Positions 24,698 to 38,689 of a stretch of DNA of 64,000 bases are shown here, piece by piece; within the stretch, counting starts at the first letter, position 1; every line of letters begins with the position of its first letter. Source of the stretch: Astrocystis sublimbata (Eukaryota; Ascomycota; Sordariomycetes; Xylariales; Xylariaceae); contig JAJNNY010000019.1 of NCBI GenBank assembly GCA_022453515.1, positions 310,001-374,000 on the forward strand. The letters run 5' to 3'. Position numbers and translations under genes: made by a program. Under the pieces are notes generated by a model. That model did no database searches. It was not told where the DNA came from and worked only from the letters and a program-made list of their open reading frames with translations.

Positions 24698-27298
24698 CTA
24701 TCCGCGCAGGCGACTCATCTGGGGATCATACAGGGGTTCCGCCGAAACGGTGGCCTTGACGCGTGTGCCAAAGTACTCGATCTCAACAGCATCGCCCTCG
24801 TTGACCGCAATCGGCAACCAGGCATAGGCGATGGGCTGGCCGATGGTAAAGCCGAATGCCGCGCTGGTGACGTAGCCCTGGGCCTGGCCGTTGACGAAGA
24901 CGGGCTCCTTGCCGAGGACGACCGACTTCTTGTCGTCGACGGTGAGGCAGCGCAGCTTCCGGGTGATGGTCTTCTTGGAGCGCCCGAAGAGCGCCGTCTT
25001 GCCGACGAAGGACTTGTCCAGCTTGAGGGCGAAGTCGAGACCGGACTCGTAGGGGTCGTGCTCCGTCGTCATGTCGGTGCCCCAGAGCCGGAACCCCTTC
25101 TCCAACCGCAGCGAGTTGAAGGCCGTGCGCCCGGCCGCGATGATGCCGTGGGGCTGGCCGGCCTTCCACAGGGCATCCCACAACCGGACACCGTTCTCGG
25201 CGCTCGCGTACAGCTCCCAGCCTCGCTCGCCGACGTACGACAGTCTCATGGCCCGGACAGGAATGCCGGCGATGCTGACATCCTTGCAGCGGAAGTAGGT
25301 CAGACCCTTGTTGGAGAAGTCATCCGCCGTGACTTGGGTGATCACATCTCTTGCCAGGGGGCCCCACAGACCGATGCAGCATGTGCCGCCGGTTATGTCG
25401 CGGACGTGCACAGCTCTCTCAGGGGTACGCTTGGTCTGGAGGCGGGCTTCGCGCGTGAAGTACGCCGTGTCGACCGGCCCGTTCACACCAACCTGGTATA
25501 ACTCTTCGGCGAATCGAGCGACGGTGATATCACTCTTCACGCCACCCTGGTCATCGAGGAGCAGGGTGTAGGTGACAGCACCCGGCTTCCTGGCCACGGT
25601 ACCCGTGGTCAACCGCATGAGCAGATCGACGGCGCCAGGGCCAGTGATCTCCAGCCGGCGAAGCGGGGTCATGTCGTACATGGCCACCGCTGTACGTGTC
25701 CTCCATGCCTCCGCAGCGGCAATTGGAGAGTAGTACTTGGAAGACCAGGCGTCGCGCTCGACGGGCTGCCATTCGGCAGGCAGTTCCTTCACGAGCTTGG
25801 CGTTGTCCTCGTACCAGAACGGACGCTCCCAGCCGCCGCCTTCGAGGAAGTAGGCGCCGAGCTCGCGCTGGCGGATGTAGAAAGGGGTGGTGCGCATGCA
25901 ACGGGGCGAGTCACGAGGCTGCAGGGGGTGGAGGATGTCGTAGATCTCCACGAAGTTCTGCTGCGACGTCTCGCTGACGAAAGAGGGCGTCAATTGGACG
26001 TCCTCGAACCGCGCGAGCTCGCACTCGGCCAGGTCGATCTTGGACTTGCCCTCCGTGAGCACCTCGGCCAGTGCGCGGGCTACACCCGCAGAATGTGTCA
26101 CCCAGACGGCCTCGGCGACCCAGAAGCCGTCGACCTTGGGTGCCTGTCCTACGAGTGGACCGCCGTCGGGTGTGAATGAGAAGATGCCGTTGAAGCCATC
26201 GGCGATCTCGCACTTTTGCAGAGCGGGCAAGATCTCTTTGGTCAGCTTCCAGGCAGGCGCAAAGTCATCTGCGCTGAACTCTAGGCGAGAGGGCATGTGC
26301 AGGTCATCGACCTCCTTTGGTGTTGCGCCCAGATCGGCGGCAACAACCGGCATAGGACGGTGGCCGTAGTAGCCAATGCCGATCTGCTCTCCATGCTCAC
26401 GGTAGTACAGGTCCTGGTCCTGATACCGTAGGATGGGTAGTGTCGCAGCGTTCGAGTTTACTGGAACGTTGCCGTTGGGCTTGTCGCCATTGGTCGTGTG
26501 GCCGTTTGTTGTGTGACCGTTCGTTAAGGCCTCTCCATTTGTGGCGGCCTCTGCGACGCCGTTGGTGGCGCCGTCTGCCGGTTCGTCATGTGTCGTCAAA
26601 GGGGTAGTCTTGACATATTGGTGCGCCATCGGTAACAGAGGGATTGGTACGCCAACCATGGCGCCAACTTCCACGCCCCAGAAACCGGCGCATGATATGA
26701 CAATTTCGGCCGGGATGGTGCCGCTGGGTGTCACGACGCCGGTAACACGACCTTCAGACTTGTTGATTGCAGTTACAGGGGTGTGCTCAAGATAACGGAC
26801 ACCCGCATCTCTTGTGCGCTTGATCAGCACCTGAACGGCGAGAGCGGCCTTTGCCAGGCCATCTGTGGTAATGTGCAGACCACCGAGTATTAAGCCGTTA
26901 TCGACCAGACCGGGGTACATTTTTAAGCACTCCTCTGCACTGAGGAGCCGCGTCTCGATGCCATAGGAATGAGCGTAGCCTTGTTTCCGCTTGAGCTCCT
27001 CGAGTCTCTCTGGCGTTGTGGCGACCTCGAGGCCGCCGACTTGGTTGAAACAGCTCTCGCCGCCGGATTTGAGTGACAGGAACTTTTCCACTGTGTAGCG
27101 TGCGAAGGCAGTCATAGTCTTCGAGGGGTTTGTCTGGAAGACCAGGCCTGGGGCGTGCGAGGTTGAGCCGCCGGGCAGGCCCAGGGGGCCCTGCTCGACG
27201 ATGGTGATGTCGGACCAGCCGCGTGAGACAAGCTCATCGGCGACATTGGTGCCGACAATACCAGCGCCAATGATGACGACACGTGGTTTAGAAGTCAT
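24698..27298 (-). CDS. dimethylglycine/sarcosine dehydrogenase-like FAD enzyme with GcvT-like folate part
   Basis: Single exon, 866 residues. The N-terminal half is a DAO-type FAD oxidoreductase: GAGIVG (11-16) and [10 protein letters not shown] with His48 at the position that carries covalent FAD in dimethylglycine dehydrogenase. The C-terminal half (about 480-866) is a GcvT-like aminomethyl/folate domain ([37 protein letters not shown]). The family oxidises N-methyl groups of dimethylglycine or sarcosine and can pass the carbon to tetrahydrofolate. Residues about 245-295 are a low-complexity TNG-rich insertion with HTTNG repeats. No mitochondrial presequence or PTS1 is visible, so cytosol is likely. 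It neighbours a regulator, a Rieske oxygenase and a sarcosine-oxidase-like gene, suggesting dimethylglycine to sarcosine within betaine breakdown. CACGTGATCGGC lies 260 bp upstream. Confidence 0.88.
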
Positions 27299-27557
27299 GA
27301 TGGAGGTGTGCCTTTGGAACCCTTTAATGTGATTGATGCTGCCAGGGTAAAAGGGATGTGTATTTTCTTCTATTCATCCAACGCCATCACGCCGCCTCCT
27401 ATATACTTCCATTCACTCTCTATGGTAGACTACGTGATAGAGCCTATCAAGCAATAAGATAGTGCCATCTCCACGAATGCAAGTGATAAGTCACCAGATG
27501 CGTTCGTGTAAGTGCCTAGATCAAGTGGTTGATAAACAATAGACCGCAGAAGCCGTG

Positions 27558-37248: not shown

Positions 37249-38689
37249 TTATAACTTCGAGGTTCTTACTGGCTCTACAAGATCCCTCATCTCCGACCTG
37301 GGCCAGTCCGGGAAAAGCGCCGGATCCGGACGTTGTCTGTCCCAAGCCCATTTCTCCGTCAAGCGAGAAGACAACTTGCCCTCCATCATCTGGACAACAT
37401 ACTTGCCAAGCACAGGGAAGAATTTGTAGCCATGGAATGAACCGCCGGTTGCAAGGTATAGACCCTTTGCAGCCGAATGCGGCGAAATGATGAAGTCGGA
37501 ACTTGTGGTAAAGGCATCCCTGTTTCATCGTCAGTTAACTAGGTACTCAATGGAGAGAAGAAATCTGCAGCACTTACCAGCAGATGCGGTGTTTTGTTAG
37601 TGGCCAATCAGCCGTCTTGTCGCCGTAGAACACTCTGTTCGCATGCGCGATGTCGTCTTTGAGTCTTTTAGAAACCTCCCATTGCCCGTAGTCAGGCTTC
37701 GGGGGTGGTGACGAGACAAAATGACCAGGCAACACTTCTCTAGTGTTCTTGAATATTGTCTGTCCCCACCACTTCATCTCACGGTCTCCTGGAGTTGGTG
37801 GTAAAGAGCCAATGAAGGGGCCTGCTCACTATATTAGATACTCGCCGCTCAAGATGAAGTGTTTAGACCCAAGCTTACCTTGATCAGGCCGATACCCTTG
37901 AAAAGCTACCGGCATTGTACCGTATATCGCGTGCAAGTCATCATCCAACCTGGCCATTCCTGTGGTTATGCCACCTGCGACAAGCCGGAAGCCGGCCGCA
38001 ATGTTGGGCAAGCCACTGCTCACAGCACTGTACTCGAGGAGTGTCGGCGTGTATGCTCCTGCAGCTACAATAGTATGGGCTGCCCTTAACAATTTACCCT
38101 TTGTCGTTCTGATGCCGGAACACTGCCCGTCCTTGGCCAACAGCAATGTCGACACTTCGGCCACTTCATACTTGACGCCCAATTCCAAGCATCTCTTCGT
38201 GATTGCGCGTAGAGAATCTCCGGCAGCACCCCACCCGCCGGTAGGGTTGATGAGCACCTCCTTGACGCCGGTGTAGTCCGCATCCTTGAACAGGCCGTTC
38301 CACAGAGTGCGTGCTTCCTCTACCGAGACAGCTTTGAGGTTGGCATCTCGTCCGAGTCGTTTGTAGTTATCAATGACCCCTTGCGCGTAAGTGTCACGAC
38401 ACGTCCATATGAGACCTGTCTCGTGAAAGTATGGTTTCCACAAGGGATCGGTCTTGAAGATGTCCTGCGCCTCGAGCGCAAGCTCACAGTAGTCGATGTC
38501 ATCGTAGTCCGCCCTCACCACTTTGTTCCAGTCCCAGGAGGCAGCGACCCGAGTTTCAGCGTCGTATGCATCCCGATCGACCAGAGTGATTGTTGCATTG
38601 GGGTATTTCTGGATGAGTTCGAAGGCCGTAGACACGCCAAACACACCTGCTCCGATGATGAGGTACGACTCCTCGCTGATCTGCGACAT
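37249..38689 (-). CDS. sarcosine-oxidase-family FAD enzyme with peroxisomal SKL end
   Basis: Exons (minus) 38689..37879, 37821..37578 and 37519..37249 join in frame to 441 residues. GAGVFG (13-18) binds FAD; RICWDAF near Cys351 matches the covalent-FAD cysteine of the monomeric sarcosine oxidase/fructosyl-amine oxidase family, followed by FIISPHS and ATGGSFHGYKFFP. The protein ends TSKL, a canonical PTS1, so it should work in peroxisomes, where H2O2 from the oxidase is handled. Close relatives include L-pipecolate and fructosyl-amine oxidases. The neighbourhood (Rieske oxygenase and dimethylglycine dehydrogenase-like gene) favours sarcosine to glycine. The start is MSQISEES; a longer upstream frame exists but is less likely. 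A CACGTGAT site lies 240 bp upstream. Confidence 0.87.

Follow-up and report, generated by a model that had tools for sequence, protein, structure and literature searches.

A candidate gene cluster for glycine betaine breakdown in the fungus Astrocystis sublimbata, with an actinobacterial-type dimethylglycine oxidase

Does a filamentous fungus carry a gene cluster that could take glycine betaine to glycine by successive loss of its N-methyl groups? This question is raised by a 64 kb stretch of the Astrocystis sublimbata genome (C99:310001–374000, the window in what follows; genome 42.6 Mb, 189 contigs), in which four adjacent genes lie on the minus strand within positions 24698–38689 (Table 1). 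In the order of transcription they encode an amine oxidase, a Rieske oxygenase, a Zn2Cys6 regulator and an N,N-dimethylglycine oxidase (DMGO). All four genes predicted by an initial annotation of the window were recovered at the place and on the strand given there: the introns of the hand-spliced models are all of the GT-AG type and 40–72 nt long, each of the four proteins has a Pfam domain match and the spliced Rieske model is 100% identical to a recorded 442-amino-acid A. sublimbata protein. The regulator model was built without comparison to any relative. For the Rieske protein, the DMGO and the amine oxidase, 120 relatives each were listed (for the Rieske protein the best 120 of 1,964 matches). 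The results make it reasonably probable that the locus is a catabolic cluster converting glycine betaine to glycine.

The DMGO, judged by its sequence, almost certainly acts on dimethylglycine, the substrate of the second step in such a pathway. Its chain carries DAO, FAO_M, GCV_T and GCV_T_C domains, all four above the Pfam cut-off, and scores 1285 bits over two stretches against the Arthrobacter globiformis enzyme (1pj5) but only 331 bits against human DMGDH. The FAD and GcvT domains predicted initially are thus present, but the protein is an Arthrobacter-type oxidase and not the dehydrogenase-like enzyme that had been proposed. Identity over the best segment is 66% to one A. globiformis genomic copy (L039; residues 1–862) and 63% to another (L074), and the match to the Arthrobacter DMGO extends over the full length except for an Asn/Gly/Thr-rich insert of about 40 residues (∼26456–26587) that has no counterpart in Arthrobacter. 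The motif STSHAPG, which is taken here to hold the flavin-linked histidine of DMGO, is conserved in 118 of the 120 relatives listed, which include bacteria. A maximum-likelihood tree of 42 DMGO rows places the 20 named fungal rows and five of six unnamed rows in a single clade (support 100/99), the successive neighbours of which (Friedmanniella, Microlunatus, Humibacillus and Sinomonas) all lie inside the Actinobacteria when the tree is rooted at its midpoint. Since the fungal rows form one clade nested in the Actinobacteria, a single transfer of the gene from Actinobacteria to fungi is the simplest reading.

The three enzyme genes also occur together elsewhere. Linkage was scored on name-bearing rows (91 Rieske, 50 DMGO and 75 oxidase rows typed, with 120 each listed). 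Rieske and DMGO genes share a contig in 11 of the 13 taxa found in both lists (one unnamed, one A. sublimbata itself), Rieske and oxidase genes in 14 of 24 and DMGO and oxidase genes in 18 of 23; all three are on one contig in five taxa. The sharing of a chromosome-sized contig is weak evidence and locus tags are stronger: these place enzyme genes no more than four steps apart in ten of the 14 species with comparable tags. The oxidase, Rieske and DMGO genes of Acrodontium crateriforme have three consecutive locus tags, the Rieske gene adjoins the oxidase gene in three Claviceps species, in Cosmosporella and in a chaetothyrialean, the DMGO gene adjoins the oxidase gene in Endocarpon, and gene pairs lie two to four tags apart in Thyridium, Neoarthrinium and Rhinocladiella. 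The recurrence of this linkage in other Pezizomycotina points to more than chance, and the persistence of linkage in related fungi, which the initial annotation had named as a check on its proposal, was found for the three enzymes in most of the species with comparable tags.

The Rieske oxygenase has the residues expected of a choline/betaine-type iron site, as had been noted from the DNA alone. The Rieske ligands are Cys121, His123, Cys141 and His144, the bridging residue is Glu244 and the iron ligands are His247, His252 and Asp352; His252 and Asp352 are present in 34 of 35 aligned rows and the other six residues in all 35. A Cys-x-x-Cys pair beside the iron site (Cys245 and Cys248), which the cited part of one study reports for 'some' group V enzymes (PMC10952381), is found in all 120 listed relatives. 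CntA is the nearest solved structure by both sequence and fold, with Stc2 a close second in fold (structure model with pLDDT 72 and pTM 0.69). An N-terminal helix at residues 10–31 is modelled with low confidence; a 19-residue hydropathy criterion detects such a segment in ten of the 120 listed relatives (P0001–P0004, P0006–P0010 and P0114), and because it also flags 45 of the 120 DMGOs the helix was not accepted as proof of a membrane anchor. No other match to the Rieske protein was found anywhere in the genome. About 20 kb to the left of the window (C99:290005–290394; L011 and L015), a Rieske-type domain lies inside a 1,097-residue frame that presumably is most like a fungal nitrite reductase and would be another nitrogen-use gene on the same contig.

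The amine oxidase belongs to the monomeric sarcosine oxidase (MSOX) superfamily, both by its DAO match in Pfam (95.9 bits) and by the fold of a Rosellinia homologue. It ends in -SKL, and a C-terminal [SAP][KR]L, the usual peroxisomal tag (PTS1), is found in 113 of its 120 listed relatives. Further relatives of this protein are encoded in the genome, the best being 42% identical over one stretch on contig C168.

Genes that could supply betaine from choline lie on another contig (C102:682577–687649; L127 and L128), where the best match in the genome to betaine aldehyde dehydrogenase (BADH; 595 bits, next 431) and the best to the choline dehydrogenase family (242 bits, next 218) are divergent and less than 2 kb apart. 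Neither gene reaches the cut-off of the bacterial family. In a comparison with solved structures, betaine aldehyde dehydrogenase is closest to the first (597 bits). For the second, the larger frame is closest to choline oxidase (2jbv; 319 bits, with the next non-choline enzyme at 193). The conversion of choline to betaine therefore probably has a gene pair of its own. Since this pair would cover that conversion, the Rieske protein would not be needed for it, and the conversion of betaine to dimethylglycine therefore remains as the open step, beside an enzyme that uses dimethylglycine.

The Arthrobacter DMGO oxidizes dimethylglycine with O2 and passes the methyl carbon to tetrahydrofolate. In the pathway proposed for the fungus, the Rieske oxygenase, with electrons from an unlinked NAD(P)H reductase, would first hydroxylate an N-methyl group of betaine to give dimethylglycine and formaldehyde. 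The DMGO would then oxidize dimethylglycine with O2, its GcvT-type half being able to hand the methyl carbon to tetrahydrofolate, with sarcosine, H2O2 and methylene-tetrahydrofolate as products. The PTS1-tagged flavoenzyme would finally oxidize sarcosine to glycine in the peroxisome, where H2O2 is disposed of. Choline would enter through the choline oxidase/betaine aldehyde dehydrogenase pair on C102, the three enzyme genes would be controlled by the Zn2Cys6 protein, and the cluster would have been put together in fungi after the acquisition of the DMGO from Actinobacteria. The order from betaine through dimethylglycine and sarcosine to glycine, already suggested by the initial annotation, remains the best reading; the substrate of the oxidase is assigned from its context.

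Several observations weigh against this account. The first of them concern linkage: the genes are unlinked in four of the 14 tag-comparable species, namely Metarhizium rileyi (79 apart), Conoideocrella, Vermiconidia and Arachnomyces, and both Aspergilli in the Rieske and oxidase lists have the two genes on different contigs, which may reflect different assemblies within one 90% cluster. An accidental neighbourhood of four genes that form no functional unit would accommodate the unlinked species together with the gaps of 1.6–2.5 kb between the four genes. However, adjacency is kept in species that presumably belong to the Dothideomycetes, Sordariomycetes and Eurotiomycetes, and mere accident is very improbable.

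A second group of such observations concerns the class of the Rieske protein, the residues of which were mapped to CntA through sequence and fold alignments. Group V enzymes, in the classification given in the cited part of PMC7948474, divide at the position of CntA residue 203 into Va (carnitine, choline and benzalkonium), with Tyr or Phe, and the demethylating Vb (GbcA, BmoA and Stc2), with Asn. The A. sublimbata protein has a Tyr here, which ties it to the carnitine/choline-type Va enzymes, instead of the demethylase Asn. Since its 120 listed fungal relatives have Tyr (110) or Phe (ten) and never Asn at this position, the fungal family can be classed as Va-like. A tree of 61 Rieske rows contains a 99/88 split of the fungal and CntA-type rows from the Asn203/Stc2 and Phe203 rows, although very long branches make the exact position unsure and no certified GbcA row is included. 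The protein scores 146.5 bits against the GbcA model NF058607 of NCBIfam (cut-off 670), which an actinobacterial Asn203 protein also misses (383 bits). Membership in GbcA was rejected on the residue, the tree and this score, and with no reductase found in the window the analogy to GbcAB drawn by the initial annotation is not borne out.

An aromatic residue at CntA-203, as in the group Va choline enzymes, would suit a choline monooxygenase that makes betaine aldehyde in a cluster for choline entry or betaine synthesis. Database names of the relatives indeed read 'choline monooxygenase', a Phacidium homologue is annotated as the first step of betaine synthesis in the cited part of PMC10657286, and yeast CMO1 is needed for the use of choline as a nitrogen source according to the pertinent passages of PMC6157903 and PMC5816127. 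However, the choline oxidase-like and BADH-like pair is already present in the genome, a query with aldehyde dehydrogenase matches nothing in the window, and the linked partners are a dimethylglycine enzyme and an amine oxidase. In addition, the choline box of plant CMO2 consists of three aromatic residues and a Glu. The passages of PMC6157903 on this family state that the substrate of the fungal CMO-like proteins is unknown and find the aromatic and acidic residues proposed to bind choline absent from them, save for an aromatic at position 281. A role as a choline monooxygenase is thus unlikely.

The yeast work counts in another way against betaine demethylation, since the cited part of PMC5816127 proposes a trimethylamine route for CMO1 (the peroxisomal placement of which is called speculative there). 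By this analogy the Rieske protein could be a CntA-type oxygenase that cleaves a C–N bond and releases trimethylamine from choline, carnitine or a relative, the DMGO neighbourhood serving general methylamine nitrogen use. The grouping with CntA-type proteins in the tree and the best solved match, in sequence and fold alike, are as such an enzyme would have them. Trimethylamine, however, feeds neither a DMGO nor a sarcosine oxidase, and the SDR, aldehyde dehydrogenase and keto acid cleavage enzyme that accompany CntA-like plasmid genes are not among the four genes, so that this alternative is even less probable than a choline monooxygenase.

The genes that accompany DMGO in bacteria bear on how the Va-like class should be weighed. 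Among 79 actinobacterial DMGO loci fetched with their flanks, several of which are cut by contig ends, a Rieske oxygenase lies near the DMGO in 40 by motif scan and in 45 by tblastn. The motif scan finds a GbcA-type Rieske protein with Asn203 in 22 loci, a Rieske protein with Phe203 in 18, both in none and neither in 39; L039 and L074, each counted among the 18, come from one contig and overlap there, and five further frames fit the Rieske pattern only. The Phe203 loci include L074:5827–8341, L091:4311–8883 and 16 more. A BCCT-type transporter is present in nine of the 18 Phe203 loci, 15 of the 22 Asn203 loci and ten of the remaining 39, and an HcaD-like reductase in 16 of the 18 Phe203 loci and none of the 22 Asn203 loci. 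The same position next to DMGO seems to be taken by either of two Rieske types, and the Phe203 type is possibly an undescribed type of betaine oxygenase. As two bacterial Rieske types adjoin DMGO, the Va-like class of the fungal protein is not decisive against betaine demethylation, and it is still somewhat probable that this protein acts on betaine; if so, it is a second Rieske lineage that does so.

The third group of contrary observations concerns the amine oxidase. Its nearest relatives of solved structure are fructosyl amine/peptide oxidases, with MSOX ranking after them both in the profile comparison and when the fold of the Rosellinia homologue is used, and it scores 37 bits against the monomeric sarcosine oxidase model TIGR01377 (cut-off 480). 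Its initial placement in the sarcosine-oxidase family holds for superfamily and fold. Sarcosine is the favoured substrate, at somewhat better than even chances, on the basis of gene context and not as fixed by sequence or fold. The DMGO ends in -LRG in 100 of its 120 listed relatives, bacteria among them, and by their C-termini the DMGO and amine oxidase steps would occupy different compartments. With the oxidase substrate open, another possible scheme is that betaine is demethylated by a homocysteine methyltransferase, for which the single S-methyl_trans (PF02574) match in the genome, on contig C17, is a candidate, and that the Rieske protein and the oxidase act on some other N-methyl amino acid or betaine, e.g. 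stachydrine. This gene is on another contig and its BHMT kind is only putative, and the sharing of a contig by Rieske and DMGO genes in most taxa points to a common substrate that yields dimethylglycine; the scheme is improbable, marginally more so than a CntA-type enzyme.

Finally, genes that might be expected beside such an oxygenase were not detected in the window. Eight queries had no match there at an E value of 1e-3: BADH, choline oxidase, BCCT and five reductases (three 2Fe-2S frames from the same genome, HcaD-like and PDR/VanB-like; GbcB itself was not among them). No BCCT transporter was found in the genome, where transporters of other families were not sought. The three 2Fe-2S frames, each ending in this domain, lie on contigs C113 (L003), C1 (L004) and C143 (L006); L003 and L006 have additional matches to MOSC and to an NAD-binding domain and L004 to a YiiM-type domain, and by this architecture they are candidate electron donors for the Rieske oxygenase. 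With respect to the origin of the DMGO, the gene is intronless and has a GC content of 61%, with 52–55% in the other three genes, but at third codon positions its GC content (0.754) does not exceed the value for the Rieske gene (0.774), and base composition therefore gives no independent support for transfer.

Transfer of the whole cluster from bacteria was considered and rejected for the 79 loci. The best match of the fungal Rieske protein in them is only ∼26% identical over the full length (at most 35.6%, over a short stretch), and a match to the amine oxidase occurs in none of the 79. At ∼26% identity the Phe203 proteins, which fall on the GbcA/Stc2 side of the Rieske tree and apart from the fungal rows, are not the source of the fungal Rieske gene. 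Because close relatives of the Rieske protein and of the amine oxidase are both missing from the actinobacterial loci examined, assembly of the cluster in fungi is more probable than its transfer as a unit. A more specific and tentative proposal, which at present falls somewhat short of even odds, is that the fungal 'choline monooxygenase' family is a betaine N-demethylase of an origin independent of GbcA that became joined, in the Pezizomycotina, to a once-captured actinobacterial DMGO and a peroxisomal amine oxidase, that a eukaryotic MOSC–2Fe-2S fusion reductase replaces GbcB and that a membrane anchor was gained in A. sublimbata and its nearest relatives.

The regulator was correctly recognized at the outset, with both Zn_clus (PF00172; 35.3 bits, cut-off 21) and Fungal_trans (PF04082; 45.5 bits, cut-off 23) above their Pfam cut-offs. 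Its adjacency gives an even chance that it controls the three enzyme genes. The words ATCACGTG and GCTTGATA each occur three times in the window, once in the 500 bp promoter of each enzyme gene, and neither occurs in the promoter of the regulator; a word is shared in this way by 1.25% of 4,000 random triples of 500 bp stretches. However, ATCACGTG was first spotted by eye and its total in the window is unremarkable (three, with 2.25 expected). The longer GCCGATCACGTG occurs four times in the genome, twice in the window, and ATCACGTGNNCGK, a pattern shaped on the three window sites, occurs 17 times in the genome, three of them in the window, compared with 20 for a reversed control pattern. Betaine-related neighbours were not evident at 16 other genome sites, as judged from the first letters of open frames without a family search. 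The choline oxidase/BADH region contains neither ATCACGTG nor GCTTGATA; in the stretches fetched for the three reductase frames, ATCACGTG is absent and GCTTGATA occurs once, in that of L003. With an unremarkable count and no evident betaine link at the other genome sites, a shared promoter motif was not upheld as proof of a regulon, and these words are a hint only.

Table 1. Positions (window numbering) of the four genes and of the promoter words.
Feature	Position	Strand	Evidence
N,N-Dimethylglycine oxidase (DMGO), 866 aa, one exon	24698..27298	-	Pfam, 1pj5 match, tree, STSHAPG motif
Zn2Cys6 regulator, 723 aa, six exons: 31321-31251, 31178-31064, 30997-30921, 30880-30432, 30375-29462, 29414-28869	28869..31321	-	Pfam
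Group V (Va-like) Rieske oxygenase, 442 aa, two exons: 34714-33804, 33743-33326; hydrophobic N-terminal helix; proposed betaine N-demethylating oxygenase	33326..34714	-	
MSOX-superfamily amine oxidase, 441 aa, three exons: 38689-37879, 37821-37578, 37519-37249; ends -SKL (PTS1); proposed sarcosine oxidase	37249..38689	-	
ATCACGTG site upstream of DMGO, within GCCGATCACGTG	27558..27565	-	Hint only
ATCACGTG site upstream of Rieske gene, within GCCGATCACGTG	35100..35107	-	Hint only
ATCACGTG site upstream of amine oxidase gene	38927..38934	-	Hint only

Other features were observed around the four genes. An enolase-superfamily gene (40912–42276, plus strand; MR_MLE_C, 197 bits) adjoins the cluster on the opposite strand and shows no sign of membership. 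Some 770 bases from the start of the amine oxidase gene, ARAGORN calls a tRNA-like gene (39460–39541, plus strand) with an odd four-base anticodon (tgta), which is perhaps an intron-bearing tRNA scored by bacterial rules. A 613-residue frame at 18471–20312 (plus strand) is a possible fusion: its first third contains a Flavoprotein domain (PF02441), and the long stretch downstream of this has repeats of 'VLEWW'-like motifs but matches nothing in Pfam. On contig C16, the stretches 29000–35000 (L101) and 41700–47700 (L102) share their open frames, but with order and strand reversed, an inverted duplication.

No report of this cluster in a fungus was found in the open-licence PMC literature, in keeping with the initial statement that no well-described fungal cluster of this form was known, but the route itself is partly described. 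In the cited part of PMC4830055, the Aspergillus nidulans genes AN8654 (dimethylglycine oxidase) and AN1430 (betaine aldehyde dehydrogenase) are up on choline, which is interpreted there as conversion of betaine to glycine; this expression fits the proposed route by analogy. In the section cited, a Colletotrichum transcriptome study (PMC5545021) groups two Rieske proteins with a dimethylglycine oxidase and a sarcosine oxidase under a single gene-ontology list. The pathway by which budding yeasts use N-methylated glycines, and its enzymes, 'remain to be identified' according to PMC7033051. Neither RNA-seq of Monascus on betaine (PMC12028682) nor koji metabolomics (PMC12566454) reports the cluster genes in the parts cited.

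The linkage to DMGO offers betaine breakdown as a concrete alternative role for a family that is widespread in the Pezizomycotina, and would reverse the implied role of the fungal CMO-like family from production of an osmoprotectant to its consumption. If this is true, the cluster would clearly exemplify the recruitment of a bacterial enzyme gene into a fungal pathway, and residue 203 alone would not decide between demethylation and C–N cleavage in group V Rieske enzymes.

Comparison with known systems shows both likenesses and differences. A. nidulans likewise has a dimethylglycine oxidase and a betaine aldehyde dehydrogenase placed in a route from betaine to glycine, but the cited part of PMC4830055 mentions neither a cluster nor a Rieske enzyme, and the main text of that paper does not contain the word 'Rieske'. 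The A. globiformis DMGO (1pj5 and 3gsi) is homologous over the whole chain, with the same four-domain order and the flavin–His motif, and differs by lacking the low-complexity insert of the fungal copy. In its actinobacterial neighbourhoods a Rieske oxygenase is often nearby; however, the fungal Rieske protein is only 24–36% identical to these bacterial neighbours, and no linked reductase was detected in the fungus. With GbcAB the cluster has in common a Rieske oxygenase as the proposed first step, together with the Rieske and iron ligands, the bridging Glu and the Cys pair, but the fungal protein has Tyr for Asn at CntA-203 and lies outside the GbcA/Stc2 side of the tree, and no linked reductase was found. 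CntA (6y8j), the nearest solved structure, has equivalents of Tyr203, Glu205 and Cys206/Cys209 in the fungal protein, but identity is ∼25% and the gene partners differ. Scheffersomyces stipitis CMO1 belongs, by published description, to a fungal CMO-like family and has a genetic tie to choline nitrogen use, whereas a trimethylamine route is proposed in the yeast work. The cluster is best read as resembling the bacterial route without copying it, since its first enzyme represents a different group V branch, its second was acquired from Actinobacteria and its third is a fungal flavoenzyme of peroxisomal type.

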